Below are positions 1 to 42,208 of a DNA stretch of 42,408 nucleotides, piece after piece. The position numbers and the translations under genes were made by a program. The notes beneath the pieces are model-generated. The model saw only the letters and a program-made list of their open reading frames with translations, was not told the origin of the DNA and made no database searches. Source of the stretch: Burkholderiales bacterium. GTDB taxonomy: Bacteria; Pseudomonadota; Gammaproteobacteria; Burkholderiales; Casimicrobiaceae. How positions within the stretch are numbered: the stretch's first letter is position 1; each line of letters opens with the position of its first letter. Location of the stretch: NCBI GenBank assembly GCA_025354165.1, contig JANXNI010000027.1, positions 1 through 42,408 of the forward strand, written 5' to 3'.

Positions 1-175
1 TTTTTCGATCAATGAACTATCGATTTAATTTTATCTGACTAACAGCATTTTCATGAATTAACCGTTTTATGTGGGGGAGTGAATGAATTGTCAGTAGATA
101 AGAAAGAACAAACAAACAAAAAACGCGCGCCGAGGCGTGATGCACGGGCGTTCGCGGTGATTCTGGTATCTACGC
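1..175. other. Left flank, probably host DNA, with a possible interrupted host reading frame
   Basis: This stretch is AT-richer than the phage and lies outside the transposase-site array. A GGGGGAG ribosome-binding-like sequence at 73-79 precedes a frame that could start at TTG 88 or GTG 79 and is basic at its N-terminus (KKEQTNKKRAPRRDAR). It runs into the phage end. If the phage is removed between the two tacgc copies (171-175 and 42293-42297), the frame continues open to the end of the window. That is weak support for an interrupted host gene, because an open stretch of about 37 codons can occur by chance. I do not recognise a protein family. One TTAACCG motif lies at 58-64. Confidence 0.35.
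171..175. repeat. Candidate 5-bp target-site duplication, left copy (tacgc)
   Basis: The pentamer tacgc occurs here and at 42293-42297, just outside the left and right transposase-site arrays. Mu-like phages duplicate 5 bp of target on insertion. A matching pentamer in two short search windows has a sizeable chance of being coincidental, and the implied termini lack TG/CA, so this is tentative. Confidence 0.35.
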
Positions 176-178
176 AGT

Positions 179-240
179 CAATTTGACCGATTTGCGCAGC
201 GATTTGTATTTAACCGATTATTTGCGGCCGATTTGGCAGT
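179..240 (+). repeat. Left-end transposase-site array
   Basis: Copies of a CRATTTG heptamer lie at 179-185, 188-194, 200-206 and 229-235, with a split version (CGATTA-TTTG) at 215-224. The segment 221-240 (tttgcggccgatttggcagt) is repeated inverted at the right end (42242-42261) with 2 mismatches. Clustered, directly repeated boxes at the element tip are what MuA-type transposases bind. A TTAACCG motif (210-216) sits between the boxes. The call rests on the repeats and their position; the exact protein footprint is inferred. Confidence 0.7.
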
Positions 241-259
241 AACTTCGGGCGAAAGCAGC

Positions 260-1075
260 TTAATCTGCGTTCGTATGCGCCCACCACACCACGCGTCCCA
301 AAATTCCAAACTCGCGCTGGTTCATCGCGTCGCTCGTGAGCGTTAGCGTTTTGTAAAACTCACGGTTATCGGAAATCACGTCCAGCGAGCCATCCAGGCC
401 GCGCTGCAAGCGTTTGACGTACACCTCACCGTCAAGTAGCACTGCATAGATGTCATCGCGCGCCGGGCCGGTGTCGCGCTTGTCGATCAGTACGATATCG
501 CCGCTGCACAGCGTCGGCTTCATCGAGTCGCCGCGCACCACGGCCAGCGCCAGCATCGTCGGCGGGACACGCAGCTCTTCTTCCAACCATTGCCGATTGA
601 ATGAGCGCGTGCCGATCACCTCGTCATCGACGGCCATGATGCCCTCGCCAGCGCTCAACAAGTTCCGATACAGCGGTATCTCGACGAGCTGGGCGGCGTA
701 TCGAGTCTCATGCGCGGGCGGTTGCCCGTCCGTCGTCAGCACCGTTGATCGCGCGTCTTCGTATTGTTGTTGTCCAAGCAACGGTTGATTGGTGTCGGCG
801 GACTCCACGGCCTGTGAAAACCGCACCAAGCCCGACAGCATGCCGGACGCCTGCGGATCAATGCGTGCGACGGTCATCGCAATAGTGATGAGACGATCAC
901 CAGGAATCGACGTTTCATTGGTGATGTAGGCATCCAGTGTGCGCTTCGGAATGCCGGTCGCGTCGCTTATGACTTGCGTCCCACCGGCAGCACGCACCCC
1001 GACTCTCAACAGTTCCGCAATGCGCTTTCGCATCGTGTCCGAGTTCGACGGACTTTCAGCGGGCAACTCAGACAT
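260..1075 (-). CDS. c: Phage repressor, XRE-like HTH plus S24 (LexA/CI) autoprotease
   Basis: This 271-aa protein is the likely lysogeny repressor. Residues 15-65 form a helix-turn-helix region (TQVISDATGIPKRTLDAYI). The C-terminal half is a peptidase S24 domain with nucleophile Ser184 in GDSMKPT and general base Lys221 in VYVKRL. Ala142-Gly143 is in the right place for the self-cleavage site. By family knowledge, RecA-stimulated cleavage would inactivate it during DNA damage and induce the phage. Classical Mu repressor lacks this domain, so this phage is probably SOS-inducible, as some CI-type transposable phages are. The start ATG at 1075 is preceded by an AAGGGGGG ribosome-binding sequence. 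It faces ner across the operator region 1076-1259. Confidence 0.93.
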   Translation of the reverse strand: MSELPAESPSNSDTMRKRIAELLRVGVRAAGGTQVISDATGIPKRTLDAYITNETSIPGDRLITIAMTVARIDPQASGMLSGLVRFSQAVESADTNQPLLGQQQYEDARSTVLTTDGQPPAHETRYAAQLVEIPLYRNLLSAGEGIMAVDDEVIGTRSFNRQWLEEELRVPPTMLALAVVRGDSMKPTLCSGDIVLIDKRDTGPARDDIYAVLLDGEVYVKRLQRGLDGSLDVISDNREFYKTLTLTSDAMNQREFGILGRVVWWAHTNAD

Positions 1076-1140
1076 AGCGCCCCCCTTGATCTCGCATTGT
1101 CCGAGTTGGCGGAGCGCTTGATTCTGCGCCGCTCGCGGCG

Positions 1141-1170
1141 ATATTTCGCAAACTTGGACATCTCAGACAA
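1141..1170 (-). promoter_or_regulatory. Putative repressor promoter with TCAGACAA repeats
   Basis: Reading leftward, TTGTCT (1170-1165) and AAATAT (1146-1141) are separated by 18 bp and lie about 65 bp before the repressor start. The -35 box lies within one of two direct TCAGACAA repeats (1163-1170 and 1172-1179); related TTGTCC/TTGGACA elements are nearby. They are plausible operator half-sites for the repressor's own control. The call is by motif only. Confidence 0.4.
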
Positions 1171-1200
1171 GTCAGACAAACAAATTTCTCTGGATATCGC

Positions 1201-1245: not shown

Positions 1246-1259
1246 ATAGATATCGCCAT

Positions 1260-2047: not shown

Positions 2048-2304
2048 AGGCGCGCATCAAAAACCGCTGGCTGACTGCCTCTGAGATAGGCCGGGAGCTT
2101 GGCGTGTCTGCGGGCACCGTCCGATCAAGGGCGGCCAAGCAGGATTGGTTTCGCGTGCCGCGAGAAGAAGCGGGCGGTGGCCATTTGTATTTGTGGCCAC
2201 GCCAGGTCGAATTCGACCTTGAGGCGCTATCTCCGCATTTCGTGATTCGCAGAATCAATGCCTTTAGCGGCGCGGTTGCTCAATTGTTGGCGGATTATGA
2301 GTAA
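2044..2304 (+). CDS. Small Mu-type HTH DNA-binding protein
   Basis: This 86-aa protein contains a single Mu-type helix-turn-helix near its N-terminus (WLTASEIGRELGVSAGTVRS, residues 9-28) with the Trp-rich continuation KQDWFRVPREE, similar to the N-terminal domain of MuA. It has no catalytic domain. Its last 8 bp overlap the A start (ATGAGTAA at 2297-2304), which implies translational coupling. It may help A or Ner bind at ends or operators, or be a duplicated A N-terminal domain that became a separate regulator. That role is inferred. Confidence 0.75.
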   Translation: MKARIKNRWLTASEIGRELGVSAGTVRSRAAKQDWFRVPREEAGGGHLYLWPRQVEFDLEALSPHFVIRRINAFSGAVAQLLADYE

Positions 2305-4549
2305 GTCACATTACTCTGCCAAAGAGCTTGCCGGGCTGCCTGGTATGCCGTCCACCGAGCGCACGGTTAAGCGTCATGCCGCCGCTAGCAAATGGCGCGC
2401 CCAAGCGCGCACCGGCAAGGGCGGTGGCGTCGGCTACCTGCTCGCTGATCTACCCGAAGAAACGCAAGCGGCGCTCGTTGAGCGCCACCTCTCCACCCCC
2501 GCCGCAGCCACCTCGGCGGGAGCTTTGCCTGTCGGCGCATCCGGTTCGCTCCCGGTGCGTCCTGCCACCACTGCACTTGCTAAAACCTCCTCCTCTGGTG
2601 CGAGTGCAGTCACGGGTAAAGCTCCCACCAAGTTGGCTATCGCCAGCCCCCGGTTAAATCTCACCACCACCGCCGACAACCTGACCGAAGCCCAGCGCGA
2701 CAACGGCGCGGCGCGGCTCACCTTGCTGCGCGCCGTGTATGCACTGCGCGCCAACGGCCTCGCATTGCAAAAAGCCTGTGACGCCGTCGCCCGCAACGCC
2801 ACGCGCGGCACCCTCGCGCCCGAGCTGCAATCGCTGTTGTCGGTGGCCAATGCCAGGGGCGACGCCATCAGCGCCCGTACCCTCATGCGCTGGCACGGTT
2901 ACTTGCAGAGCGCCGCCGACAACCCCAGCGCGCAGATCACCGCCTTGGCGGAAATCGTCCCGGTTAAAACCCTCGCCCTCCCGCCTGACGTGCTCGGCAC
3001 CATCGCGCTGCTCGACACCAGCGGAAACAGCCTAAGCGCCGCCTGCCGCAAGTACGCCCGCGCCAACGGCTTCATTCACGATGAGGTCGAGATTAACCGC
3101 CTGTATCACCGCGCCACGCGCGCCCTCCGCGACAAAGTCCCCGCCAGCGTCATGCACAAGCGCCGCCACACCGGCGCGGGGTTAACCGCCAAAAAGCCGC
3201 ACGTCACGAGGAGCACAGCGAACCTCTTGCCGAACGACATCCGCGTGACCGATGGCCACAGCATGAAAGCGCCCTGGGCGCACCCTGAGACGGGCAAGCC
3301 CTTCACGCCTGAATTCACCGCCGTCGAGGATTGGGCCACGCGCAAAGTCGTCGGCTGGTCGGTCAGTCTGTCCGAGAACGCGCTGGCCGTGCGCGAGGCG
3401 CAACTCAACGCGATCCGCGACTTTGGCGTGCCAGGCATTACCTACAGCGACGGCGGATCGGGCCAGACGGCCAAAGACATGGACGACCCGGTGCGCGGCT
3501 TTTATGCCACGTTCGGGATCGATCACCGCACCGGTCGCCCCGGCAATCCGCAGGGGCGTGGCGTCATCGAGCGCGCGTGGGCCAGTCATGCGATGGAAGT
3601 CGCCCAGGAAAACCCGCTATTCCGTGGTAAGACCGTCGACCGCGACACCCTGCGCCGCAACACCATCGCCCTTGATAAGTCCCTACGGCTGGCCAAGCGC
3701 GACCCGTCCAACGTCGTCCCGATCAACCAACTCCCGCCGTTCACGCAGTTCATCGAGCGCATGACGCAGGCGATTGACGAGTACAACAGCCGCCCGCATC
3801 GCGGCTTGCCCAAAAACGACGCCACCGGCCTGCACTTCTCGCCCAACGACTATTGGGCACACCTGGCCACCCATCCCGATTGCGCATTCGAGACGGTCAG
3901 CGTCGACGCCCAGCGCCTCATGTTCATGCCGTACCTGATCGTCCCGGCGCGCCGTGGCCGCGTCACCCTGTTCAAGAAGTATTACGGCCACGCCGACCTG
4001 TACACCCTCGCCGACGAAAAGCATGTCCGCGTGTACTACGACGTGACCGACCCGCGCCTCACCTGGATCACCGATCTAGAAGGCCGCTTCCTGTGCGAAG
4101 CCACCATCGACGCCAACACCCGCGACGCCTTCCCCATGTCAGTCGTCGAGCAAACCCGCCTGCGCCGCATCGACAACCAGGCCAAGCGCCTGCAAGGCAA
4201 AGCGGACGACCTGGCCGAAGAGCGCGCCGGAATCGTCCACTACAGCGCCCAAGCCTTTGCCCGCCCCGATCTGCCGGTGCTCGACGTGGAAGACGACGCC
4301 ACCGTCGTCCCGATCAAACCCGAGCCCGAGGCAGACGCCCGGCCCGCCCGATTCGCGGATGAGCTGGACAAATTCCGCTGGCTCATGGCCCATCGCGACG
4401 CCGTCACCGACAGCGACACCAACTGGCTGCGCGGCTTCGCCAGCAGCGCGCTGTACCGCGACTGCGAGGAAATCTTTGAGAGAGAAGGCATCGCCTACGG
4501 CCCGGCCCACGGCGCAGGCGGCGAAGTTTTTAAGGTGGCTGCCGCGTGA
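2297..4549 (+). CDS. A: Mu-type DDE transposase (A protein)
   Basis: This transposase of 750 aa catalyses strand transfer for phage integration and replicative transposition. The ATG at 2297 is preferred to the upstream ATG at 2258: it begins directly with the Mu-type HTH (YSAKELAGLPGMPSTERTVK) and overlaps the previous stop. Counted from this start, a Pro/Ala/Ser-rich linker covers about 65-115, the helical end-binding domains about 125-270, and the RNase H-fold core about 310-510. The triad is D319 (VTDGHS), D385 (YSDGG) and E425 (VIERAW), spaced 66 and 40. The mu-C beta-barrel and a C-terminal tail that would contact B follow. Five TTAACCG/CGGTTAA motifs lie inside the gene. The stop overlaps the possible GTG start of B. 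Confidence 0.95.
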   Translation: MSKSHYSAKELAGLPGMPSTERTVKRHAAASKWRAQARTGKGGGVGYLLADLPEETQAALVERHLSTPAAATSAGALPVGASGSLPVRPATTALAKTSSSGASAVTGKAPTKLAIASPRLNLTTTADNLTEAQRDNGAARLTLLRAVYALRANGLALQKACDAVARNATRGTLAPELQSLLSVANARGDAISARTLMRWHGYLQSAADNPSAQITALAEIVPVKTLALPPDVLGTIALLDTSGNSLSAACRKYARANGFIHDEVEINRLYHRATRALRDKVPASVMHKRRHTGAGLTAKKPHVTRSTANLLPNDIRVTDGHSMKAPWAHPETGKPFTPEFTAVEDWATRKVVGWSVSLSENALAVREAQLNAIRDFGVPGITYSDGGSGQTAKDMDDPVRGFYATFGIDHRTGRPGNPQGRGVIERAWASHAMEVAQENPLFRGKTVDRDTLRRNTIALDKSLRLAKRDPSNVVPINQLPPFTQFIERMTQAIDEYNSRPHRGLPKNDATGLHFSPNDYWAHLATHPDCAFETVSVDAQRLMFMPYLIVPARRGRVTLFKKYYGHADLYTLADEKHVRVYYDVTDPRLTWITDLEGRFLCEATIDANTRDAFPMSVVEQTRLRRIDNQAKRLQGKADDLAEERAGIVHYSAQAFARPDLPVLDVEDDATVVPIKPEPEADARPARFADELDKFRWLMAHRDAVTDSDTNWLRGFASSALYRDCEEIFEREGIAYGPAHGAGGEVFKVAAA

Positions 4550-4608
4550 CTGGAATCACGCAGCAGCCGGAGTTAGCGACACACATCACCAACCAGAGGA
4601 AATTACCA

Positions 4609-5349
4609 GTGAAACATCAATTTGTCAAAACCAAGAACTACGAACGCTTCATGAAAGCGTTTCGCAGCGTCGAAGAGCGCGGCGCACGCGAAGCGGGCAT
4701 GCTCTTCGTCGAAGGCCAGCCCGGCGCAGGAAAGACCGAAACGGTGCAAGGTGTCGCCGCGCAAAACGGCTGGGTGTTTTTGCGCGCCAACGTGGACTGG
4801 ACGCCGCGTTACTTTCTCGGCGAGCTGGCGCGTGAACTCTCGGTCGACACCGCTGGGCGCAGCGGCGACCTGTTCAAGCGCTGCCTGATGCAGTTGGCCA
4901 AGCGCGACTTTCCCGCCATCGTCGTCGACGAAGTGCAGCACTGCCTGGGCAACCGCGCCGCCATCCTCGAAAAAATCCGCGATTTCAGCGACCGCACCAA
5001 CAGCCCCGTGATCCTCGTCGCTGGTGAAAACGGCGCATGGGAACGCCTGGGCCGCTTCCCCCAGCTCGCCAGCCGCATCGCCAGCCACATCAAGTTCGAG
5101 CTTGCCGACGACAACGACATCGCCGCCGTGTTCAAACAGCTTTGCGAAGTGCCCGTCTCCGCCGATCTGGTCTCCCGCGTCAAAAAAGACAGCAAGGGCC
5201 TCATGCGCCTGGTCATGAACGCCATCCCCGCCGTCGAGCGCATCGCCAGCACCAACGGCCTCAAAACGGTCACCGCCAAAGACGCAGATGGCGTGCCGCT
5301 CTGCGTCGACTGGCAAGCCACCCGCACACCACTCTACGGGCGCGCGTAA
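4609..5349 (+). CDS. B: MuB-like AAA+ ATPase, target selector for transposition
   Basis: This ATP-dependent DNA-binding protein would deliver target DNA to the transposase. Walker A is GQPGAGKT and Walker B is AIVVDEVQ, with a sensor-like motif after LVAGENGAW. The GTG at 4609 is preceded by AGAGGA at 4595-4600, giving 246 aa. The GTG at 4546, overlapping the A stop, would add 21 residues without a visible ribosome-binding site. Mu B is 312 aa with an N-terminal HTH; this protein lacks that domain and resembles the shorter B/TnsC-like ATPases of other Mu-like phages. Confidence 0.93.
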   Translation: MKHQFVKTKNYERFMKAFRSVEERGAREAGMLFVEGQPGAGKTETVQGVAAQNGWVFLRANVDWTPRYFLGELARELSVDTAGRSGDLFKRCLMQLAKRDFPAIVVDEVQHCLGNRAAILEKIRDFSDRTNSPVILVAGENGAWERLGRFPQLASRIASHIKFELADDNDIAAVFKQLCEVPVSADLVSRVKKDSKGLMRLVMNAIPAVERIASTNGLKTVTAKDADGVPLCVDWQATRTPLYGRA

Positions 5350-5480: not shown

Positions 5481-6037
5481 AGCAGCACACGGATGCAACC
5501 CTCGCTTTGCGCGCCATTAACGACAGCAGCAGCAAATGCCTGGGCGTCGGCACGATTGCGGGCTTTCACACCAGCCTCACCCGCACCCAGGCTGACGCCG
5601 CCGTGCGCTACCTCATGGCGCGGGCGCTGGTCGAGCACCACAAGCGCGGCTGCTACCGCATCACCGCGCTCGGCGTGCAGGTCGCTAAGAGCGAGGCGGG
5701 CGTCGTCAAAAGCAAAACTGGCATCGCCGCCACCGCCACGCAAAAGCAAACGCAAGGTGCCAACGGCATTCGCGGCGCTGCCTGGCGCGCGCTGCGCATC
5801 ACGCCCAATCTCACCATTGACGAAATCCTGTCCCGAGTTGACGACGGCGAAACCGACAACGCCCGCCCGCGCGTGCTGCGCTATCTCGCGGGCCTTGCAG
5901 CGGTCAACATCATCACCCGCAAGGGCAAGGCGCATTTGCTCACCAATGACTTAGGCCCCATCGCCCCCACGGTCGGCCAGCGCGGCCAGGTGTTTGACCC
6001 GAACGCGGGCGTGTTTGTCGTGGGTGAAAGCGAGTGA
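5477..6037 (+). CDS. Early protein with two winged-helix-like segments
   Basis: This 186-aa protein starts with GTG overlapping the previous stop. Two segments look like winged-helix repeats: about 5-65 (TRTQADAAVRYLMARALVEH, then a YRITALG wing) and about 98-155 (TIDEILSRVDDG, then VLRYLAGLAAVNIITRKGK). They are joined by a basic, low-complexity linker. It is probably DNA-binding, with unknown targets. Similar proteins follow B in several Mu-like phages. Confidence 0.75.
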   Translation: MKQHTDATLALRAINDSSSKCLGVGTIAGFHTSLTRTQADAAVRYLMARALVEHHKRGCYRITALGVQVAKSEAGVVKSKTGIAATATQKQTQGANGIRGAAWRALRITPNLTIDEILSRVDDGETDNARPRVLRYLAGLAAVNIITRKGKAHLLTNDLGPIAPTVGQRGQVFDPNAGVFVVGESE

Positions 6038-6384
6038 CCCGCGCCATGCAACTCATCACCGACCTGCGCGCGCGTGACAAGGCTGCGTCGTTTGCTGTCA
6101 TCGCCCAAAAGATCGGCGTCAGCAAGGCCACCGTCGTGCTCTGGTTCAACGGCAAATATCCCGCGAACGCCCAGGCCGTCGAGGCCAAAGTCGTCGCGCA
6201 GTACGACACCGTGCAGTGCCCGTTTTTGCAGCAGACCATATCGCTGGTGAGCTGCGCGGAATTCCACAAAAAAGAGATTCCCACCAGCTCACCCAGCGCG
6301 CTCTCGCACTGGCGCGCCTGCAAGGAATGCCCCTACAGCGCCGCCCACTGGCATCAAAACGAAAGCGGAAAGACCAAAGCATGA
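6034..6384 (+). CDS. HTH protein with a C-terminal cysteine cluster
   Basis: This 116-aa protein starts with GTG overlapping the previous stop; the ATG at 6046 is an alternative. Residues about 18-42 form a clear helix-turn-helix (FAVIAQKIGVSKATVVLWFN). The C-terminal half has four cysteines in QCPF, SCAEF and ACKECPY, typical of a small metal-binding or Fe-S site. The combination of HTH and Cys cluster is conserved among early proteins of Mu-like phages. It is likely a DNA-binding regulator; the metal is unknown. Confidence 0.75.
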   Translation: MTRAMQLITDLRARDKAASFAVIAQKIGVSKATVVLWFNGKYPANAQAVEAKVVAQYDTVQCPFLQQTISLVSCAEFHKKEIPTSSPSALSHWRACKECPYSAAHWHQNESGKTKA

Positions 6385-6644
6385 ACGCCATCAAAACCAC
6401 CGGCATCGTCGTCGCCGCCATCGTCGTCGCGCTCGCCATCGCCAAAGCGCCCGTGCTCGATGTCGAGGTGAACGCCCAAATGCAGGCCGAAGCCGCCGCC
6501 ATGAAAGCGCCCGAGCCCTGCTGGGACGAGCTGCCGTTTCGCGTCGCCCTCACGCAAGAAAACATCGACCGGCTCTGCATCAAGGTGCAGCGCCCCCGCC
6601 CCGCAACCGCTGCCACCCGTCCCGTCGCGCAATTTCACCCTTAA
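6381..6644 (+). CDS. Small exported or membrane-anchored protein
   Basis: This 87-aa protein starts at an ATG overlapping the previous stop (ATGA). Residues 6-22 form a hydrophobic helix (TGIVVAAIVVALAIAKAP) that could be an uncleaved anchor or a signal peptide. The remainder is soluble with two cysteines (EPCWDEL and RLCIKV) that could form a disulfide outside the cytoplasm. The TAA stop (6642-6644) lies within a TTAACCG motif. The function is unknown. Confidence 0.65.
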   Translation: MNAIKTTGIVVAAIVVALAIAKAPVLDVEVNAQMQAEAAAMKAPEPCWDELPFRVALTQENIDRLCIKVQRPRPATAATRPVAQFHP

Positions 6645-6657
6645 CCGAAAGCCACCC

Positions 6658-9388: not shown

Positions 9389-9439
9389 CCCAACCCCGAA
9401 TTTAACCGTCCCTCCTCACCCTAAAAAAAGGAACCACCA

Positions 9440-28044: not shown

Positions 28045-28069
28045 CCGCGTAGACGATCCGGTGCTCAAT

Positions 28070-28416: not shown

Positions 28417-28427
28417 CGATTTAACCG

Positions 28428-31301: not shown

Positions 31302-31705
31302 CGGGTCGGCGGCATGACGATGAAACGAGTTCGGACGGTGGGTCGGCAGCCGCATTTGAAGGTAAGCGCGCGGAAGGGTGGCACCTCGCCGACCCTGACG
31401 ATGAGCTGCCGCCCACCGACCCGAGCCATCGCTATGAGCTGTGGCCCGACAACCTGGACGCGTACTGCGCCTACGGCGAACTCGCAACGCAGTGGGTTAA
31501 AGACGCCAACGGCATCGACACCGGCTTTAACTACAGCGCCGTGCTCGCGCACCTGGCGTTCACCGTGCCCAACAAGGCCGAACGCAAACAACGTTACGAC
31601 GACCTACGCGTGATGGAGCGAGCAGCCATCCCCGTGCATTACCAAAAAGCACAAGAGGCGATGGACGCTGCCGCCACCAAAGCACGCCAGCAAAAGCCCG
31701 GTTAA
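30726..31705 (+). CDS. Tail assembly chaperone, -1 frameshift product (gpGT-like)
   Basis: Slipping -1 at A AAA AAC (31271-31277) joins the first 184 residues to a 142-residue extension, 326 aa in all. The extension (31277-31705) contains TDPSHRYELWPDNLDAYCAY and NYSAVLAHLAFTVPNKAERK, a DUF1799-like T domain. The frame has no good start codon of its own near the junction. A potential stem GCCGCCG/CGGCGGC (31283-31289 and 31307-31313) lies 5 nt downstream as a stimulator. Both forms would coat the tape measure during tail assembly. Confidence 0.82.
31271..31313 (+). promoter_or_regulatory. Programmed -1 ribosomal frameshift signal
   Basis: The heptamer A AAA AAC is in the correct phase (0-frame codons AAA, AAC). 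The spacer is 5 nt, then a 7-bp GC stem GCCGCCG/CGGCGGC encloses a 17-nt loop that also carries CGC/GCG complementarity. This is the classical arrangement for tail chaperone genes. Confidence 0.82.
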
Positions 31706-34700: not shown

Positions 34701-36838
34701 ACTATAGCGGTCGCGGCGTCGATCCAGCGGTGTACGCCACGCTCACCAAAGCCATCAACACGATTGATGACCTGCTGGTGAAGGACTTGCTGAGTGGCGA
34801 TGTCATCAACAAGATTCGTCAAAACATCAACTCGATTCAGAACGAAACGAGCTGGCAGCACCTCGACAAAGAGGGCATCGAAAAGGGCACCAAAGAGTTT
34901 TTGATCAAGCGCTACGGCGCAGTGTTTGATGAGGTCGATCCCAAGATCGCGGCCAGCATTCGTGGCTTCACTGGCACCAGCGAGGAGCTGCTCAAGTTCC
35001 TCGGTGGCGTGCTGGGCGTTATGCAAACACTCAAAACCAATGCCGACGCATTCAAGGCGGTCATTGGCGAATCGCTTTCATTGGGTCAGCTCACTGCGCT
35101 GCAAAAAGAAGGCGAATCCCTGGCCGACACGCTCACCCGCGTGGTCGGCGTCTTCCAGAGCACTACGCAAATTGCCGAGATCATGGGCAAGGGCGCGGAT
35201 GCGTTCGGTGCCGTGGGCTTGGCCTCACTGGAGGCGCGTGAGCGCTTGGTGACCCTGGCAGGCGGCTTGCAATCGCTGTCATCGGGCGTGTCGTTCTACC
35301 TGGAGAAGTTTTTCACGGACGAGGAGCGCGCGGCCCTTGCGCGCAAGCAGGCGCAGGCGCAATTAGAGAGCGGATTCGCCGCGCTGGGCATGGCCATTCC
35401 TACCTCGCGTGCGCAGTTCGTGGCCCTCGTCAAAGGGATTGACCTGTCGACCGAGGCGGGCCAAAAACTCTTCGTGGCACTGATGGCGCTCGCGCCCGCC
35501 TTGGACACGGTGCTTAAGGTGGCCAGCGAGCCGCGCAAGGGCCGTTTGCAGGTTGCTGCTGATCCGTTGACCGGCAAGGCGGAGACTTCACAGTTTTATA
35601 GCGACAATTTTTTAACCGAGACCCAACGTCGCGCACAAAAGTTTGCCGAGTCCACACAGTCAGTCAACGATACGTTCGGTCATCTCGGCATCGCCATCCC
35701 CAAAACCCGCGCGGAATTCAAGGCGCTGGTCGATAGCTGCGACCTCACGACTGCCAGTGGTCGCATGATGTACAACATACTGATGGGTATCGCGCCCGCA
35801 TTTGCCGATATCACCGAAGCCGCGCAAAGCCTGGTGCAGATGGCCATCAACATCGGCGGCGTGCTGGAATCCGGCACGCAGCTCGCCAGCGACCGTCTGT
35901 CGCAACTGTTTGCCATCATCGACAGCACGGGCGAATCCGCCCAGGTGAAGATGCAGCGCAAGCTCGCGGCCACCACCGCATTGGCTGCCGAGCTGGATGC
36001 TGCCTACAACGCGTCCGTGGCCCGCAACGGCGGCAACGTGCTGGCCGATTCGCTCGCCATCAAGGCGGCGCGTGACGCGGTGCTGGCACAACAAGCGGGC
36101 CTCGCCGGTGACCTGGCCCTATTCACGGTGCTGCAAGCGCAATACGGCGCACTGGCCGATCAAATGTTCAGCCTCGAAAAATGGCATCAAGAGCAGATCG
36201 CGCTGGCCAACGGCAACGCCAATCAATTGCTGCTGATTGAGCAGAGCTACGCCGAGCGCCGCAACGCGATTTTGACGGGCGGTGTGAGCACCGGCCTGGG
36301 CTCACTGAGCGCCACGATTCAGGCATGGATCAACAGCCTGTTGCTCAACAGCTCGCTGACCACGCTCACGCCGCAACAGCAGCTCGACGAGTCGCGTCGC
36401 CAGTACGAAACTGCTCTGCAATCGGGTGACGCCAACGCGATCACGCGCGCCGCCGATGCCTACCTGCAACAGGCCCGTTCCTTCTACGCATCAGGCGCGC
36501 AGTATGCCGCGATCTTCGCCGCTGTGCTCGCGCAAATGCAGGCGCTGGCCAACGGTCAAAACGTGCCCGTGGTGCCCACGCCGAATGTGCCCGTGGTCGG
36601 TGGGTCGGGCGGCAACTTTGGCGGCGGCGGCGCGCTGCAATCGCGCGCTGCCGCTGCATCCGCCGCATCCGCCGAGCGCGCGGCAAACGTCGCGACGCAG
36701 GCGCTGGCCACGATCATGGCGGCGGTTAAATTTTCAATTGACGACGAGGGCGAGGCCAACCGGGCCAGCCGTGAAGCGTCGACTAAAAAAATCGTCGACG
36801 CATTGGCACCGGTCGGCAACAAGCGCGTGGCGGTGTAG
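31739..36838 (+). CDS. Tape measure protein
   Basis: This 1699-aa protein is the longest gene, as expected for the ruler of a long tail. The tape-measure N-terminal domain is at about 150-297, including VQAEELRGQLGERLPGAFGI, SMGVTEKELNKLLETG and DFLPKFAAQL. Coiled coil is extensive at about 540-770. A Gly-rich hydrophobic segment follows at about 825-950 (GGIVNGLGSLFGGGGSGSIG), likely membrane-interacting during DNA entry. The C-terminal helices are Ala-rich near 1640-1665. By the usual rule of about 1.5 angstrom per residue, the tail would be roughly 250 nm; that is an estimate. Confidence 0.93.
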   Translation: MSGQDIQLRLVIGADGAAAVTVVKQTSGEVDKLADAQKRVAASNKDASGSAADYAAELRKQLRMLQDTTAQHRELEARMRGATQSQLTDVRALGAQIDALTAKSTQFAGVAGGVSGLLANWVAPAALIASVIAFTNALTEARLQVEKLNATQLFANGGDLAAAGRDIAFVKERANALGLEFLVVANSWGKFNAAARGSALAGEGAREVFDSILKASTALRLSSSETEGALLAVQQMMSKGNVQAEELRGQLGERLPGAFGIAARSMGVTEKELNKLLETGKVLATDFLPKFAAQLTKELGDTPQKAAEGTQGALNRLSNAFVDLKQEASQLGGPNAAVGALTTLFDNLAQSIRVTRAESGGLFMQIANGYNTVKRFIEGGGSETEAGKLREGKIAAQELVEKMRELVKVRAEFADAPARQGQIDRQLALLGQQYAKFYGATTALGRDALAIEGEQYRDRAELAGKNKTLIQGLFDSRKASDEQYLKDLAATGNKQAKLRLAMHEIDEKYKNDSNRTEAEIAALRADATKKIYGGDTKQAAQAHYAELIAREEGFQKSLEKTLKDETETLKFARDQGVITETEYYQRLGEIRIIGQAQYEESVNREVAAARDAVARGDQAKKKDFATYLAQQKEFGNQRLKIEVETNEATAAAQRKAFAEELARRTRQNSSLADLAQSRRDAAVSNAEELEQKQFELSLLGEEELTQQRLQAQRQIELQMRRQLTAAQKEYNKALEDAIRDGASPSAIAAITASYNDTTTAIRAGAAANRDVTLSIINQSSALNDQKQFWDGFFQSIKGGWKGVRDYLKNFFFDWLLKQLSQQFVMNVAVSGSGGAGGGVGGIVNGLGSLFGGGGSGSIGGSLFGGALGSLGTLGGVIGMGGSGILGALGAGYSLGAAGATAGGLAGATGAFGLATSAGGIAGVAGGIGSVVGSVISMIPVVGWIAIAAYAAFKLFGHDKEPGFKIDNNLTNVGNPSSHFTPDSLSPFDYSGRGVDPAVYATLTKAINTIDDLLVKDLLSGDVINKIRQNINSIQNETSWQHLDKEGIEKGTKEFLIKRYGAVFDEVDPKIAASIRGFTGTSEELLKFLGGVLGVMQTLKTNADAFKAVIGESLSLGQLTALQKEGESLADTLTRVVGVFQSTTQIAEIMGKGADAFGAVGLASLEARERLVTLAGGLQSLSSGVSFYLEKFFTDEERAALARKQAQAQLESGFAALGMAIPTSRAQFVALVKGIDLSTEAGQKLFVALMALAPALDTVLKVASEPRKGRLQVAADPLTGKAETSQFYSDNFLTETQRRAQKFAESTQSVNDTFGHLGIAIPKTRAEFKALVDSCDLTTASGRMMYNILMGIAPAFADITEAAQSLVQMAINIGGVLESGTQLASDRLSQLFAIIDSTGESAQVKMQRKLAATTALAAELDAAYNASVARNGGNVLADSLAIKAARDAVLAQQAGLAGDLALFTVLQAQYGALADQMFSLEKWHQEQIALANGNANQLLLIEQSYAERRNAILTGGVSTGLGSLSATIQAWINSLLLNSSLTTLTPQQQLDESRRQYETALQSGDANAITRAADAYLQQARSFYASGAQYAAIFAAVLAQMQALANGQNVPVVPTPNVPVVGGSGGNFGGGGALQSRAAAASAASAERAANVATQALATIMAAVKFSIDDEGEANRASREASTKKIVDALAPVGNKRVAV

Positions 36839-36840: not shown

Positions 36841-39780
36841 ATGGCCGTCAAATACATCTGCGACTTTCTACCGTACCGCAAAAGCAATGCCGCTTATCGA
36901 ACGCTCGCCGCAAAAAATCCAGAGGACTGGACGGGCACCGCCTTAACCGTCACCAGCGACGACACGACGCGCTATGCCGTGCTGGCCGCCAACGGCGCAA
37001 CGCTGTGGTCGCCACCGAGCGGCAGCGGCACCTGTTTCATGCTGGTGAAGGCGCGCATGATTCCGGGGACGTTTGACAGTTGCTACATCCGTGTCAACGC
37101 GGAGTTTGACGCGTTAATCGACGTGGTGACCGGTGTCGCCAATCTCTACAAAAGCGGCACGCTGCTAGCGAGCGGATCGCTGGGCTCGGGCGTGTGGCGT
37201 TCGTCAAGTGATTTCGAGCCCGCCTGGATTCAGTTGATTTTTAACCAACTCGGCTCACCCACCACAGGTGCAAGTCTGAGCATCGCGCCGGTGAGCAACG
37301 CGGGCGCGGTGAGCGGCTTTGTCAGCTACACCGGATCGACGTTTACCTACGGCATCGCCTGGTCGCCGGGCTTCGGGCGTTCGGGCTCGGGCGGCAAGGG
37401 CGCGTTTGATTACGTGGGGCTCTCCGATGGGTCAGGGCTCGCGTTGCAGGACGTGTCGCCGCGCTCGCGGTTAGACCCGGCCTATTACGATAAATGGCTC
37501 AAATTGGCGCACGCGGCATCCGCGCCCCGTGTCATGACCGCCGAGCTATTCGTGCCGGGCTACGACGGCTCGAATGTGACCAACTACACCACTGCCGTGC
37601 TGCGCGCGGCGACAGTGCCATACAACAGCGGCAGCACCTGGCCGTTCGACAATCAGGCGTTTGCCGAGGCCATTGTCGACTTTCCCGAATTCAGCCGCGC
37701 ATTGCCAGCGGAGCTACTCGGTCGGCAAAACATCACGGCGGGCGATCTGGTGATTGCCAACCCAAACGGCGTTCGCGATAACTGGCTGCTGGCCAAAGCC
37801 AACAAGGCCGTGGTCACGCTGCGCTACGGCGATCGGTCGTGGCCGTTTTATGACTTGGCCACCGTGTTCACCGGCGAGGTCACCGACGTGACCGATGAGC
37901 CTGGCGCGATCCGCATGAAGCTGCGCGACACCATGAGCCGCTATGACAAGCCGGTGGCACGCGGCAACCTGGTGGGCGCGGGCAATAACACCGGCAAGCC
38001 GATTCCGATTTCAGCGGGCCTCTCCGACAGCGTCACGCCGGTGTTGATCGACTCGGCCACGTTGACCTATCGCATTGGCGAGGCCAACATCAAAGACGTG
38101 GCGGTGTTTGACAAGGGCGTGGGCCTGATCGACAGCGCGTTTACGCTGATCAGCTACAACGTCGCCACCAAGGCGCTGCGCACGAGTGTCGCGCACGGCA
38201 TGGTCGTGGGCGACGCGGTGAGCTGGGCCAGTGGATCGCTACCCAGCCCGCTGACCACCGGCACCAACTACTTTGTGCAGAGCGTGCCAACGAGCGACAC
38301 GTTTACCGTGTCGGCCACGTACGGCGGCGCAGTGATCACCTTGAGCGGCACCAACGGTGAGCAGGTGGCCACGGTGACATTGCCCGGCACGGACGTCATT
38401 CGCTTTGGCGCTGCACACAACTTCGCAGCCAACGACCTGGTGAAGTTCACCACCGGCTGCCCATCACCCTTGGTCGCGGGAAATTCGTATTACGTGAGCG
38501 CGACCAACCTCACGACCACCGAAGCGTCATTCAGTTTGACCTCGGGCGGCGCGGTGATCGACTTGACGGCCACCACCAAAACCGAGAGCTACGCGGGCTT
38601 TAGTTTTTGGGGCTACGGCTCGGCGCACGGCTATGCCAACAACGACGAAATTGTGACCGGCCCGACCACGACGGGCACGCCGCCAATCGCCGCGAACACG
38701 CGCTATTGGGTGTTTGCGATCAACACGGTCGAGCACGGCTTTCGCAACTCCAATGGCGGCGCGCAGATCGCGTTTTCTGGCGTGGGTGGCATTGCGGGCA
38801 CGACCACGCCGAACGCCAGCGGCTATTCGGTGTACAAGCCGCTGTCCACCGTGGGCGCGCTGCTGGCCGTCATCGTCGACGCGGCAGCGGCCACCTTTCG
38901 CCTGGTGCGCAACCCAGCCGGTCAAATCACCTGCACGCTGCGCGGCCAGAGCTTTGGTGGTGCGACTTATACCGGCTCAGCCGTTGAAGCGCTCAAGGTG
39001 CTGGTCGGCGCGTCCGATCCGCTGATTTCCACACAACTACAAACCAACGGCACGAACATCAGTTGGCGCAACCGCGTCGGCGTGTGGGTGGATCAACCCG
39101 CGAACCTGGCTGACTTGATCGATTGGCTGGCACTGTCGTGTGTGAGCGCCTGGGGTACCAACCGCCTGGGCACGTTGATCGCCAACATTCTGGACGCCGA
39201 CTTTTCCGCCACGCCCACGGCCACCATCACCGATGACCTGGTCGACCCGTCCAATCAACTGCGCCTGACCGCCAAGCTCTTGCCGGTGGATCGCTACGAA
39301 GGCGCTTCGGTCGGCTACGACAAAAACTACACGCCGCAGTCACAAAGCGACCTGGCGGGTGTGATCAATGCCAACGTGGCCCTGGTGCAATATCTTGCGC
39401 GCAAATTCGCGATCAGCACCCTGAATCTCGGCGGCAGCGGCAACCTGGCGGGCCTTGATTTGGGCGAAAAGGGTGAGCGCCGTCGACTGCCAATGTTTGA
39501 GACGGCGCTGGAGCTGGGCAGCCAGGCCGCATACCACTTGAGCCACGGCATCCTGTGCTGCCCCAAGCAAATGGGTGTGTTCACACTCACCGTGTCCTGG
39601 CAAGCGCTCAATGCGTTTCAGGTCGGCAAACAGGTCAGGATCAAAACCAGCCGCTACGGCATCAACCCATCAGTCGGAAAAAACTTCCTCGTCACCGCCG
39701 TGAGCGAGAAATTCACCACCGGCCAGGTGTCGCTCACGCTGCTCACCGACCTGGACGGCTATTTCCCGGTCACCACTTAA
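36841..39780 (+). CDS. Large tail-tip or baseplate protein with three internal repeats
   Basis: This 979-aa protein follows the tape measure, where the distal tail proteins are encoded. The N-terminal about 220 residues are beta-rich. A middle region contains three related segments of about 70-75 residues (about 435-512, 513-585 and 586-660), each with an AHGMVVGDAV, AHNFAANDLVKF or AHGYANNDEIV start and a YFV/YYV/YWV strand. These look like small beta-barrel repeats seen in phage structural proteins. The C-terminus (QVGKQVRIKTSRYGINPSVG, TGQVSLTLLTD) resembles hub-type tail proteins. The exact role is inferred. Confidence 0.8.
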   Translation: MAVKYICDFLPYRKSNAAYRTLAAKNPEDWTGTALTVTSDDTTRYAVLAANGATLWSPPSGSGTCFMLVKARMIPGTFDSCYIRVNAEFDALIDVVTGVANLYKSGTLLASGSLGSGVWRSSSDFEPAWIQLIFNQLGSPTTGASLSIAPVSNAGAVSGFVSYTGSTFTYGIAWSPGFGRSGSGGKGAFDYVGLSDGSGLALQDVSPRSRLDPAYYDKWLKLAHAASAPRVMTAELFVPGYDGSNVTNYTTAVLRAATVPYNSGSTWPFDNQAFAEAIVDFPEFSRALPAELLGRQNITAGDLVIANPNGVRDNWLLAKANKAVVTLRYGDRSWPFYDLATVFTGEVTDVTDEPGAIRMKLRDTMSRYDKPVARGNLVGAGNNTGKPIPISAGLSDSVTPVLIDSATLTYRIGEANIKDVAVFDKGVGLIDSAFTLISYNVATKALRTSVAHGMVVGDAVSWASGSLPSPLTTGTNYFVQSVPTSDTFTVSATYGGAVITLSGTNGEQVATVTLPGTDVIRFGAAHNFAANDLVKFTTGCPSPLVAGNSYYVSATNLTTTEASFSLTSGGAVIDLTATTKTESYAGFSFWGYGSAHGYANNDEIVTGPTTTGTPPIAANTRYWVFAINTVEHGFRNSNGGAQIAFSGVGGIAGTTTPNASGYSVYKPLSTVGALLAVIVDAAAATFRLVRNPAGQITCTLRGQSFGGATYTGSAVEALKVLVGASDPLISTQLQTNGTNISWRNRVGVWVDQPANLADLIDWLALSCVSAWGTNRLGTLIANILDADFSATPTATITDDLVDPSNQLRLTAKLLPVDRYEGASVGYDKNYTPQSQSDLAGVINANVALVQYLARKFAISTLNLGGSGNLAGLDLGEKGERRRLPMFETALELGSQAAYHLSHGILCCPKQMGVFTLTVSWQALNAFQVGKQVRIKTSRYGINPSVGKNFLVTAVSEKFTTGQVSLTLLTDLDGYFPVTT

Positions 39781-39792
39781 CCGCACCCATTC

Positions 39793-40608
39793 ATGCCGCT
39801 TCGCATTATTCACACCAACAAAACCGACAGCGCCACGCTCTCGGTGTCGCCGTCAGAAAACGCCAGTTTTCCGGTGGCCAACCTCACCACCGCGATGCGT
39901 GGCGACGTGCTGCGCACCACCGGCGTGAGCGCGCAGCAAATCCGCGCCGTGTGGGGCAGCGCGCAAAGCGTAAGCGCCGCAGCCTTGTGCCAGCACAATT
40001 TAACCGCAGCAGCCACCTGGCGCGTTCGTCTTTACAGCGACAACGCATTCACCACGTCAGTCTACGATTCAGGCACCGTCACCGCGTACGACAGCGCCGG
40101 GATCGGCACGCTTGACGCGATCACCGACCCGAGCTTCATCGGTTACAAAAACTCGGTGCTGTGGTTCAGTGCGGTCAACGCGCAAAGCATGACCATTGAT
40201 TTAACCGACGCGGCCAACCCCGCAGGCTACCTGTCCGCCGCGCGCATGATCGTCGGCGGCTACACCGAGCTGGCCTACAACTTCGACTGGGGCCACCCGT
40301 TGAACGCCATCGACCCGACCACGCAAAGCACAACGCTCGGCGGCTCGCTGCTCAGCCAGGACAATGGCCCCATCAAGCGCGAGCTGCAACTCGATTTCGC
40401 GCGCCTGGCCGCCACAGATCGTAACTTCATGTTCGACCTGATCCGCACCAAAGGCAAGGGCAAAGACGTCTACGTCTCCGCCTGGCCCGGTGCCACCGGC
40501 AAGAAAGAGCGCGACTACCAGTTCGCCGCCAAACTCACCGCCTGGCAAGGCGTCGCACAGCCCATGCTCAACTATTACGGCACCAGCGCCACCTTCGGCG
40601 AATACTGA
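39793..40608 (+). CDS. Distal tail protein, beta-rich
   Basis: This 271-aa protein has discoidin-like beta patterns (ATLSVSPSENASFPVANLTT, SVLWFSAVNAQSMTIDL) and a C-terminal domain with REYQF-like tail-protein features (KRELQLDFARLAATDRNFMF, GKDVYVSAWPGATGKKERDY). It is the last gene of the structural operon. It probably forms part of the tail tip. No further tail gene follows, which is short compared with B3-like phages. Confidence 0.78.
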   Translation: MPLRIIHTNKTDSATLSVSPSENASFPVANLTTAMRGDVLRTTGVSAQQIRAVWGSAQSVSAAALCQHNLTAAATWRVRLYSDNAFTTSVYDSGTVTAYDSAGIGTLDAITDPSFIGYKNSVLWFSAVNAQSMTIDLTDAANPAGYLSAARMIVGGYTELAYNFDWGHPLNAIDPTTQSTTLGGSLLSQDNGPIKRELQLDFARLAATDRNFMFDLIRTKGKGKDVYVSAWPGATGKKERDYQFAAKLTAWQGVAQPMLNYYGTSATFGEY

Positions 40609-40620
40609 AAACCACAACGT

Positions 40621-40633: not shown

Positions 40634-40638
40634 ATGTT

Positions 40639-40696: not shown

Positions 40697-40880
40697 TGAC
40701 TCAGTGACTAGGTGATGTGCTCACAAACCGCTACATTGTTGGTTTTAACCGATGAGCGACCACCATGAGCACTAAAGCCCCCAGCCACGTCCCCCCGCTG
40801 CCATTCTGGAAGCGCTGGACGGCCCATGTCTTTAACTGGTCGGTCAATTAACCGCCACCCAAAAACTGTATATTGGCACA
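40697..40880. other. Mostly non-coding segment with a 28-codon frame
   Basis: This gap after the stem-loop holds two TTAACCG copies (40745, 40848) and the small frame at 40765-40851. TATATT at 40869-40874 could be a -10 box for the next gene, but no good -35 is seen. Nothing else is recognisable. Confidence 0.4.
40765..40851 (+). CDS. Possible 28-aa peptide
   Basis: ATG 40765 opens a 28-codon frame encoding MSTKAPSHVPPLPFWKRWTA and ending HVFNWSVN, unusually rich in Trp, Phe and Pro. A 7-codon frame (40752-40775) with its own ATG overlaps the start. The TAA stop is inside a TTAACCG motif. No ribosome-binding site is convincing, so translation is uncertain. Confidence 0.25.
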   Translation: MSTKAPSHVPPLPFWKRWTAHVFNWSVN

Positions 40881-41204
40881 GTGAAATGCAACGTATATCG
40901 GTTTTATGTGGGCGGCAAAAAGCAGGACGATGACGACGTCAAGCGTGCTGGCGCTCGGCTCGGCCTCGTCGTCTTTGAGCCCTATCGCCGTGATCAGACC
41001 GGCGCGCCAGTAAGGTTCCGTGCCATGCTGGTTTCAGCTGATCAGGCCGGTCAAAATGTCCTGCCGCCGCTCGATCACGCATTCATCACCCGCCTGGACT
41101 CTCGGGGAATCCTGATTCGTGGCCAAGAGATCATCGCCCGCAGCCCGTCGATTAAATCTCGGCTGGAATATTACGATCAGCTCTGGCTCTGTAAACCGGC
41201 CTGA
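40881..41204 (+). CDS. Hypothetical accessory protein
   Basis: This 107-aa protein starts with GTG 40881. It is basic, with a mixed alpha/beta look (KCNVYRFYVGGKKQDDDDVK, LGLVVFEPYRRDQTGAPVRF, SRLEYYDQLWLCKPA). It stands alone on the plus strand after the tail operon, where Mu-like phages carry accessory genes. No family is recognised. Confidence 0.6.
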   Translation: MKCNVYRFYVGGKKQDDDDVKRAGARLGLVVFEPYRRDQTGAPVRFRAMLVSADQAGQNVLPPLDHAFITRLDSRGILIRGQEIIARSPSIKSRLEYYDQLWLCKPA

Positions 41205-41304
41205 CGGTGCGTTGGGCACGCCACCGATGTCCGTGGGGCCCCTCTAACGTTTTGGTGTTTTCAGTACCGAACGGGATTTCGCGACCGAATTGGCAGCGTG
41301 TCAA
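41205..41304. other. Gap between convergent accessory genes
   Basis: This 100-bp space separates the plus-strand orphan and the minus-strand pair. CCGAATTGGCAG near 41286-41297 resembles the end-box CGATTTGGCAG at 229-239 but differs at several places. No clear terminator is visible. Confidence 0.3.
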
Positions 41305-41859
41305 CTACATATCGGCCTTTGCCTTTTCGGCTGCGCGTGCTTTTTTCGCTGCGGCATAGGCCATAACCACGTCATTTGCCTTTTTTGACGATACAGAAAT
41401 TCGCGTCTGCGCAGGGCGTTGCGGAGGGCCATCGGTGGCCGGGAAATACATCAGCGATGCTTGCAATTCAGGTTTTGTCCAATGCACAATTTGCGTAACA
41501 GTTCCGACGATTACCCTCATTGGGTCAGGCTTCTGCCACGATTCCAGCGTGTCGTGCGGCCCAATGCGCTCCTCGATGTTGGTTTTGATGTCATCAAAAA
41601 ACCGCCCTTCGAGCCTCACACCGTACCCCTCGAATGTCCCAGCGACGTATATAACTTCAAACTGAACTGGCACTTTGTTGGCGTACGTTTCGCCCGTGAC
41701 GAAGCAGCTCTGATAGCTCACTAGCTCTTCGCCGCACTTCTGAGTGGGCATCTTGGCTTCAACCGCGCCTCGCGGGGAGCCTAGAGGAATGCCTTTAAGA
41801 TCAACGGCTGATGCAATCGAACAAAATCCGAACAAAACGAGGGCGATTTGCAGTTTCAT
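41305..41859 (-). CDS. Periplasmic protein of unknown function
   Basis: This 184-aa protein has a clear Sec signal peptide (MKLQIALVLFGFCSIASAVD, cleavage after ASA at about 18). The mature part has two cysteines (QKCGEELVSYQSCFVTGETY) that may form a disulfide, and a Lys/Ala-rich C-terminal helix. The N-terminal motif KGIPLGSPRGAVEAKMP resembles small periplasmic proteins with a GIPLGS start. Its start overlaps the stop of the HNH gene, so the two form an operon transcribed towards the phage interior. It is probably a lysogenic-conversion (moron) gene. Confidence 0.75.
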   Translation of the reverse strand: MKLQIALVLFGFCSIASAVDLKGIPLGSPRGAVEAKMPTQKCGEELVSYQSCFVTGETYANKVPVQFEVIYVAGTFEGYGVRLEGRFFDDIKTNIEERIGPHDTLESWQKPDPMRVIVGTVTQIVHWTKPELQASLMYFPATDGPPQRPAQTRISVSSKKANDVVMAYAAAKKARAAEKAKADM

Positions 41860-42176
41860 GGTTTAACCTGGGTGGATTGACGAAGAAGGCGACAGCGGCG
41901 CACATCGGCGTGTGTCTTGGCGCGGTGCTCGGCTAGGGTTAACCACTGCATGTTCGCGCGATGATCCGCGCCGCCCGCACACAGGGGCTCAATGTGGTCA
42001 ACCTGATAGCCAGGGCAAGCGCCTTTAATGTGTCGAGTCACGGGGCACAGATCACCTTTGCGGAACCGATAAACTTCGCCCGCAGAACGATCAGCAGCCA
42101 AAGCCACAAAGGCAAAAGCCGCGAAACCCCCGCAAATAAAGGCAACTCGAAACATAGGGCGCAATCGTAGCGTCAA
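41856..42176 (-). CDS. Exported or membrane-anchored HNH nuclease
   Basis: This 106-aa protein has its HNH core in the C-terminal two thirds: YRFRKGDLCPVTRHIKGACP, then D60-H61 in QVDHIEPLCAGGADHRAN, N75 and H84 in the LAEHRAKTH segment. Cys44, Cys54, Cys66 and Cys95 could bind a structural metal or form disulfides. Residues 8-28 (FRVAFICGGFAAFAFVALAA) form a signal peptide or anchor, so the nuclease would act in the periplasm. Met8 is an alternative start. It is the first gene inside the right end, divergent from the phage's main direction. Attack on incoming DNA is a possible role. Confidence 0.8.
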   Translation of the reverse strand: MTLRLRPMFRVAFICGGFAAFAFVALAADRSAGEVYRFRKGDLCPVTRHIKGACPGYQVDHIEPLCAGGADHRANMQWLTLAEHRAKTHADVRRCRLLRQSTQVKP

Positions 42177-42208
42177 GTTTCAATGATTTAACCGATCACC
42201 CAACAAAC

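Follow-up and report, generated by a model that had tools for sequence, protein, structure and literature searches.

A dispersed seven-nucleotide word in a Mu-like phage as a putative binding site of a phage-encoded protein

The 42,408-nucleotide stretch analysed here (the window) is an entire contig, JANXNI010000027.1, of a 4.72-Mb, 97-contig assembly of a Burkholderiales bacterium (GCA_025354165.1), and it carries a Mu-like transposable phage of 42,219 bp. The word CGGTTAA (TTAACCG on the opposite strand) occurs 48 times in the window where about 3 copies would be expected, and selection acts on the DNA word itself and not on protein. We propose that the word is a short asymmetric site of a protein from the phage transposition module, which by binding would organise, and perhaps mark, phage DNA; the binding is putative, and we hold this reading tentatively, at a little short of even confidence. 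Five features, taken together, led us to propose a phage-protein site: the DNA-level excess, the lack of such an excess in the host, sister words in related phages, conservation of the sites, and doublets of the word between genes G and I.

The word in the phage and in its host

An initial annotation of the window had counted 48 copies by eye, 29 reading TTAACCG and 19 reading CGGTTAA, and a 7-mer count recovered every one of them in its place. Forty-seven lie within the phage (71-42289) and the remaining one, at 58, lies in host DNA flanking it.

Copies of the word (positions in the window, strand, description):
58-64, −, copy in host flank
210-216, −, copy near left end
2364-2370, +, copy
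2651-2657, +, copy
2961-2967, +, copy
3093-3099, −, copy
3182-3188, −, copy
6641-6647, −, copy over TAA stop
8031-8037, +, copy
8261-8267, +, copy
8292-8298, +, copy
8580-8586, −, copy
9402-9408, −, copy
12082-12088, +, copy
12702-12708, −, copy
13013-13019, +, copy over TAA stop
13444-13450, −, copy
15959-15965, +, copy
17469-17475, −, copy
20402-20408, −, copy
20441-20447, +, copy
20619-20625, −, copy
22418-22424, +, copy
24078-24084, −, copy (doublet)
24088-24094, −, copy (doublet)
24221-24227, −, copy
24591-24597, +, copy
25421-25427, +, copy
26228-26234, −, copy
28041-28047, −, copy over TAA stop
28421-28427, −, copy
29548-29554, −, copy
29898-29904, −, copy
30784-30790, +, copy
31047-31053, −, copy
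31699-31705, +, copy over TAA stop
32853-32859, +, copy
33540-33546, +, copy
33650-33656, +, copy
35612-35618, −, copy
36723-36729, +, copy
36943-36949, −, copy
39777-39783, −, copy over TAA stop
40000-40006, −, copy
40201-40207, −, copy
40745-40751, −, copy
40848-40854, −, copy
42188-42194, −, copy near right end

Counting both strands, Markov models of order 0, 1 and 2 predict 3.5, 2.6 and 2.8 copies, and those of order 3 and 4 predict 6.2 and 19.7; at each order from 0 to 3 no other 7-mer has a z as high as that of CGGTTAA. The excess reported in the initial annotation thus persists after Markov correction (48 copies against 2.8 at order 2). It disappears at order 5 (47.9 expected) because the 6-mers within the word already hold it. 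The site extends to CGGTTAA-A-(T/C), the next nucleotide being A in 30 of 48 copies and the one after it T or C in 36 of 48, and forms with one mismatch show no comparable enrichment (at most GGGTTAA, 4 against 1.3 expected; TGGTTAA, 5 against 2.0; CGTTTAA, 6 against 2.7). Spacing along the window is random-like (coefficient of variation 1.00, or 0.93 with close pairs collapsed).

When every called protein was kept and synonymous codons were drawn from codons not touching the word, 3.3 coding copies were expected (sd 1.7; the highest of 300 draws was 11). The observed number is 33, so that selection acts on the word as DNA, as the initial annotation had argued. The other 15 copies lie in 5,763 bp of called non-coding DNA, at 2.9 times the coding density, although the non-coding portion is overestimated since the caller of open reading frames overlooks short genes such as ner. 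Of the six strand/phase classes, coding copies occupy four (5, 11, 4 and 13 copies), and in the two empty ones CGGTTAA would place TAA in frame. Two further details of that annotation proved correct: five copies overlap TAA stops (6641, 13013, 28041, 31699 and 39777), and neither strand has a copy between 217 and 2363. Other high-z words (CCAGCTC in the window, TCCAGGA in phage D3112) are concentrated in one or two strand/phase classes, but that CGGTTAA is likewise a codon or mutational artefact is scarcely credible for a word found in four classes, tenfold above the synonymous null and 2.9 times denser in called non-coding DNA. By the same strand/phase and synonymous tests, CCAGCTC in the window, TCCAGGA/CCTGGAG in D3112 and TCCAGGA in LPB1, all at first thought to be dispersed words, were judged to be codon effects.

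The boundaries of the phage were set by identity to other contigs of the host assembly:
1-70, host flank, 100% identity to G000:C8:29795-29864
71-42289, +, Mu-like (transposable) phage of 42,219 bp, TGTGGGGGAG...AATTACA, host identity ending at 70 and returning at 42290
42290-42408, host flank from another locus, 100% identity to G000:C69:23365-23483

Flanks from two host loci would be expected of a transposing Mu-like phage. Contigs C8 and C69 each continue uninterrupted across the junction, so that in the population that was sequenced the phage occupies more than one site of insertion.

Across the assembly CGGTTAA occurs 344 times, 48 times in this contig and 296 times in the other 4.68 Mb, a host density of 0.063 per kb that is 18-fold lower than the 1.11 per kb of the phage. 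For CGGTTAAAY the counts are 21 in this contig and 33 elsewhere (a host density about 70-fold lower), and a control, the reversed word, occurs 787 times in the whole assembly, so that the host count of CGGTTAA falls below it. With no excess in this host, two options of the initial annotation, a nucleoid or segregation motif of the host and an uptake-type sequence, are removed for this host. The copy at 58 had been taken to leave open that the host shares the word; the copy is present and its flank is host DNA, but it is a single host copy and the sharing did not stand.

Mimicry by the phage of a host-protein site (nucleoid, segregation or Chi-like) or of a DNA uptake sequence has some precedent, since a Neisseria-type uptake word is present in some Mu-like contigs (L024, with 21 copies of GTCTGAA against 2.2). 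Here it is very improbable, given the 18-fold lower host density, a host count under that of the reversed word and flanks that both link the phage to this host; moreover, a 55-kb contig with the related word CGTTAGA (G458) has no copy of it in its last 14.9 kb. DNA uptake sequences are known from Neisseria, whose DUS the present word resembles in being short and in recurring about once per kb of phage DNA, and from which it differs in that the host genome shows no excess. Three Mu-like contigs (L019, L020 and L024) are rich in GTCTGAA/CCGTCTGA words, which we take to be the Neisseria uptake word, and the dispersed word of these contigs is probably a host uptake sequence.

Sister words and a central doublet in related phages

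CGGTTAA is not in excess in D3112, LPB1, VW-6B, TJ1 or G048 (0-5 copies, with at most 6.4 expected). Many relatives instead have words of their own. Rhizobium phage RR1-B has the dispersed word GCGTTAGAA, with CGTTAGA present 21 times against 1.3 expected (13 coding copies against 0.8 under the synonymous null), and RcapMu and RcWaterboi (RcW) have CGTCAGGA in 16 and 13 copies (coding, 11 against 2.4 and 10 against 2.4). A scan of relatives by alignment of the transposition protein B gave 116 loci, of which the best 80 were considered and 38 of those records counted in full; CGTTAGA has 13-28 copies in 12 of the 38, 10 in G443 and 0-4 in the other 25. Other sister words are CGTCAAAA (G469, G462), TGTCAGGA (G456), CGTCAGA (G459, G455) and CGTTAAA (G432, G444). 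G432, analysed from base 20001 onward, is among the four closest to the window by B (46%) and has CGTTAAA 20 times against 2.2. All sister words fit N-GT-Y-A-R-R-N (the GTYARR class), a frame in which the window word reads GGTTAAAY. On the sequences compared, CGGTTAA thus belongs to a broader family of words and is the form particular to its own lineage.

We scored the class as −log10 of a Poisson probability, using 7- and 8-mers in 51 sequences (window included), and found 22 of the 51 at 7.5 or above and 26 at 6 or above. With permuted cores, scored on 8-mers only in 13 phages, median best scores were 2.0-2.7 with rare values up to 11.9 (D3112, once), and at least 8 of 520 trials reached a best class score of at least 7.5, so that single scores of 7.5-9 are weak. 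The phages are related (RR1-B, G448, G449 and G452 have more than 90% of A in common) and the counts are therefore not independent; contigs may also include host DNA.

Among CGTTAGA phages the positions of the word are retained as well. Of 163 word sites aligned between the members of 14 phage pairs, whose nucleotide identity is 68-80%, 86 are exact, compared with 16.5% of all 7-mers, a control that is not matched for composition, in pairs that overlap phylogenetically. Close pairs of words (7-60 bp apart) in 13 phages comprise 14 tandem, 14 convergent and 2 divergent pairs against about 10 expected in all. The convergent pairs are spaced by 17, 25-28 and 36-37 bp, and these spacings suggest helical phasing. 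Some of the close pairs are common to related phages. Convergent pairs recur in RR1-B (L074: 1673/1690 and 25519/25547, 17 and about 25-28 bp) and in RcapMu (L075: 425/450, 20245/20272 and 35277/35305, about 25-28 bp), a pattern that suggests phased dimer binding.

Several words outside this set were also noted. G433 (L199-L200) has a DNA-level dispersed word, GCTGGCCA/TGGCCAGC, which falls outside the GTYARR class (26 coding copies against 6.3, 11 non-coding against 0.9), and a terminase-fetched contig (L021, 14507/14518) has a CGTTTAA doublet with copies 11 bp apart, maybe another word variant. Three candidates were rejected: GGGAGAGGG in G034/G039 we take for paired terminator-like repeats, and TCGTTTAA in L081 (5 of 6 copies) and CCGGTTAC in L104 form local clusters.

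Two copies of the window word form a close tandem pair:
24078-24094, −, tandem doublet CGGTTAACCCCGGTTAA, 10 bp spacing, in the gap between the portal gene and F

When genomes were searched for 7-mers that recur at a distance of 9-12 bp and are also enriched in the rest of the same genome, the window pair 24078/24088 was the top match overall, and a doublet of the word was the best or second-best match in 15 relatives. The 51 sequences contain 24 tandem doublets of the GTYARR class at 10-11 bp, of which 18 lie in the G-I gap (a gap about 0.2-3.7 kb wide); those of D3112 and LPB1 are placed there by annotation, and doublets elsewhere occur in G437, G462 (twice) and G458. Spacer and flank are alike in RR1-B (CGTTAGAGACGCGTTAGAAAC), G441 (CGTTAGACCCCCGTTAGAAATCGA), the window (CGGTTAACCCCGGTTAAAAACGA) and D3112 (CGTTAACCCCGTTAGAACCCCGTTAGAAATCG), and RcapMu and RcW have, by eye, CGTTAGCCCCCCGTTAGG in the G-I gap.

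Mutations of the strong gyrase site (SGS) of Mu map near G and I, near the centre of the genome (PMC10052514). In location the G-I doublets of relatives resemble the SGS, a special site near G and I and near the centre of a transposable phage (PMC10052514, PMC3820752). They differ in that the G-I site here consists of two tandem copies of a word which many of the phages also carry throughout the genome, and the window doublet lies between portal and F. For Ab30, a relative of D3112, an intergenic segment of 37 bp that is free of insertions (18,736-18,772) has been put forward as the gyrase site (PMC5977238). We considered whether the Ab30 doublet is this segment and rejected the idea, the coordinates being about 0.9 kb apart, a gap that the genome sizes (37,205 bp in the paper, 37,238 in the record) cannot bridge. 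The segment itself seems to hold GGCACATTGTGCC, with an inverted repeat 25 bp on (LN610590, L239, 18,758-18,770 and 18,783-18,795), possibly the site of some other protein.

Candidate proteins that read the word

The following genes of the phage bear on the question of which protein binds the word:
260-1075, −, CI-like repressor (S24), phrog/Pfam matches, upstream region without the word
2258-4549, +, transposase A, phrog_310, 3.7e-121
4546-5349, +, transposition protein B (AAA+ ATPase), candidate binder or partner, phrog_296, 1.4e-42; PF13401
5477-6037, +, reg9, transcriptional-regulator-like, phrog_2030, 1.8e-19
6034-6384, +, reg10, small protein resembling helix-turn-helix (HTH) proteins, with a C-terminal Cys cluster, candidate binder, phrog_2119, 9.1e-26
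20093-20596, DUF1804 DNA-binding protein, encoded upstream of TerL and treated here as the small terminase

The match of reg10 to HTH_31 (6.8e-5) is under the Pfam cut-off, and its Cys cluster is visible in the alignment. A, B, reg9, reg10, Mor, DUF1804 and TerL are encoded by all 27 phages to which we assigned a word, the labels having been assigned by hand, five of them (G444, G443, G463, G466 and G467) to phages scoring under 7.5. We correlated word distance with the distance of each gene, given the mean distance of the other genes. In the 27 phages word distance tracks B best (partial r 0.38, p 0.0005), followed by reg10 (0.21, p 0.03) and A (0.16, p 0.007), and does not track reg9 (0.03), Mor, DUF1804 (0.00) or TerL; in an earlier set of 17 phages the leaders were ParB (0.52), B (0.44) and reg10 (0.41). 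Another regulator, reg6 (phrog_2345), was rejected as binder since it anti-tracks the word (partial r −0.34). The best bet for the binder thus appears to be the A-B-reg9-reg10 module.

Many of these phages encode, upstream of A, a ParB-like protein (ParB_N plus an HTH-like stretch; PF02195 match of 28.1 bits, cut-off 26.3), and the words could be its parS-like sites. Among the 51 sequences, 19 have both a word score of at least 7.5 and ParB, 3 the word only, 7 ParB only and 22 neither (Fisher p 1.3e-5), and in the 17 phages ParB distance tracked the word (p 0.0045). This made ParB the leading candidate until word phages without it appeared: the window, G432, G444, G463 and G443 (the last three under 7.5) have a word and no ParB, none being found in the window by tblastn, phmmer, a ParB HMM or hhalign. 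Furthermore, the HTH-like stretch varies among phages sharing one word, D3112 and LPB1 have the doublet without ParB, and the partial r drops to 0.24 (p 0.09) with 27 phages. Two ParB phages, G457 (3.5) and G460 (2.4), have low class scores, and the contig of G455 starts at A, so that ParB presence is not judgeable there. A ParB-parS system, which the words resemble in that 19 of the 22 sequences at 7.5 or above have a ParB-like gene, and from which they differ in the word phages lacking that gene and in a word that is not palindromic, is an unlikely explanation.

It is more doubtful still that the words are stoperators, to which the CI-like repressor would bind genome-wide to stop transcription in the lysogen. 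An asymmetric, dispersed, phage-specific site, present in more than 20 copies over the phage, is what a study of mycobacteriophage L5 (cluster A) describes, together with an orientation that follows transcription and whose reversal abolishes repression (PMC9283540). In contrast to cluster A stoperators, the words here do not follow transcription in their orientation (172 with it and 214 against it in 20 phages; 19 and 29 in the window) and lie mostly inside genes (33 of 48 copies inside called genes). They are also missing from the repressor operator: among 12 word phages whose repressor was detected, 11 have no word in the 250 bp upstream of the repressor start, G441 being the exception with one copy. 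In the window the gap between the repressor and ner has TGTCYGA-like repeats instead, as judged by eye. These boxes (TGTCCGAG, TGTCTGAC and TGTCTGAG, at 1076-1260, some on the minus strand) are likely the CI operators. The suggestion of stoperator-like repressor sites in the initial annotation is thus disfavoured by the word-free 217-2363 interval and by orientation, and of its four options only the site of a phage-specific protein survives.

Similarly improbable is a role as packaging recognition sites of the DUF1804 protein. The HTH-like stretch of this protein is similar throughout the CGTTAGAA group, with a change from Q to E in the CGTCAGGA and CGTCAAAA phages, but it shows no partial correlation with the word, and packaging of Mu starts at the left end, so that genome-wide sites would be unexpected.

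Other features of the phage and the possible role of the word

The phage has TGT...ACA ends and differing host flanks, as a Mu-like transposable siphophage does, a left end similar to those of RcapMu (TGTAGGGGGG) and RR1-B (TGTAGGGGGG), and a Mu-like gene set (S24 repressor, Ner-like protein, A, B, regulators, Gam, Mor, TerL, portal, major head and tape measure). A megablast search of the first 25 kb of the window against phages and a tblastn search of phages with p5477 each gave zero matches, and close relatives sought in viral contigs via the transposase, the repressor, p6658 and reg10 were not confirmed. Upstream of A, 2044-2304 encodes a small stand-alone HTH-like protein resembling a Mu-type HTH by eye (Sigma70_r4 and AsnC matches under Pfam cut-offs; phrog_1206, 5.6e-4) that has no tblastn match in the phages compared. 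Between Mor and the terminase, 15868-16764 encodes a 298-aa protein with a weak match to microbial PARG (E 0.004, under the cut-off). Two roles in transposition itself were rejected for the word. As a transposition target it would be suggested by the host copy at 58, which ends 6 bp from the junction, yet the C69 junction is free of copies over 3.1 kb; as a transposase end site it would have to resemble the end repeats, and these (GATTTGKCAG in the window, CTTCTGGACA in RR1-B and CTTCCGGACG in RcapMu) are by eye unlike the words. The left end of the window phage contains ATTTGACCGATT adjoining ATTTAACCGATT, and the word may therefore partially overlap the end sites.

On the proposed reading, the word would be the predicted binding site of a phage-encoded DNA-binding protein, repeated over the whole phage, and the tandem pair about one helical turn apart in mid-genome would anchor the dispersed sites. 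The binder would come from the early transposition module, the best candidates being the ATPase B or reg10, the small HTH-like protein two genes downstream. Acting from the doublet, bound sites might organise, and perhaps mark, phage DNA, with some likeness to the action of the SGS, MuB and nucleoid proteins on the Mu domain. DNA so organised could bring the ends together for transposition and allow self DNA to be told from host DNA. According to PMC3820752, the Mu domain requires the SGS and MuB; the central gyrase site, MuB and nucleoid proteins of the host yield a stable prophage domain whose ends are paired, and a nucleoid-like role is suggested for MuB.

A number of observations weigh against this proposal or limit its support. 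In its favour, word sites are spaced more evenly than random (P ≤ 0.05) in 10 of 15 phages when close pairs are collapsed, but the collapsing was done in the data and not in the simulations, which leans the test slightly towards evenness, and in the window the sites are not more even than random. The doublet and the dispersed word are not always the same, since RcapMu, RcW, G466 and G467 have a GTTAGG-type doublet in the gap and GTCAGGA as dispersed word; among the 22 sequences at 7.5 or above, RcapMu, RcW, G456, G432 and G459 have no class doublet found by script; and the doublets of G437 and G462 lie outside the G-I gap. In the window the doublet lies in the portal-F gap, 2.9 kb off centre, and reads opposite to the strand of A, whereas 14 G-I doublets of relatives read with A; by rough estimate, about 0.1 same-strand pairs as close as this one would arise by chance from 48 sites. 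In Ab30 the word triplet (19,630-19,656) is about 0.9 kb from the insertion-free segment, which argues against simply identifying the doublet with that segment. As to the binder, all phages compared were fetched via A, B or terminase, so that the presence of these genes is uninformative; all 16 phages labelled wordless possess B and reg10; in nearest-neighbour agreement B comes last with 12 of 27, whereas terL, reg10 and DUF1804 each reach 17; and the Pfam matches of the window B are to AAA-type and TniB domains only.

A bolder version, which we regard as doubtful, is that a branch of transposable phages writes a lineage-specific GTYARR self-tag into its genome about every 1-3 kb, and that a module protein reads it outward from the central doublet, folding the prophage and preventing self-insertion; this would be a sequence-coded form of target immunity. 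Among the papers listed in a literature search on transposable phages, also in connection with ParB, on stoperators, gyrase sites, over-represented 7-mers and dispersed motifs, none describes such a phage-wide word in its title or the opening of its abstract. Because the defining features that we tested of stoperators, of uptake sequences and, in the window, of ParB-parS are absent, we class the word as a new form of dispersed-site system.

How a Mu-like phage avoids inserting into itself when phage makes up much of the DNA in the cell has been worked out mostly in Mu, with MuB and the gyrase site, and the same is true of how ends 37-42 kb apart are paired. If the proposal is true, a dispersed, changing word with a mid-genome doublet would make both questions approachable through sequence in phages other than Mu, and the most enriched DNA-level word of a genome, together with its doublet, would serve as a computational signature for such systems.

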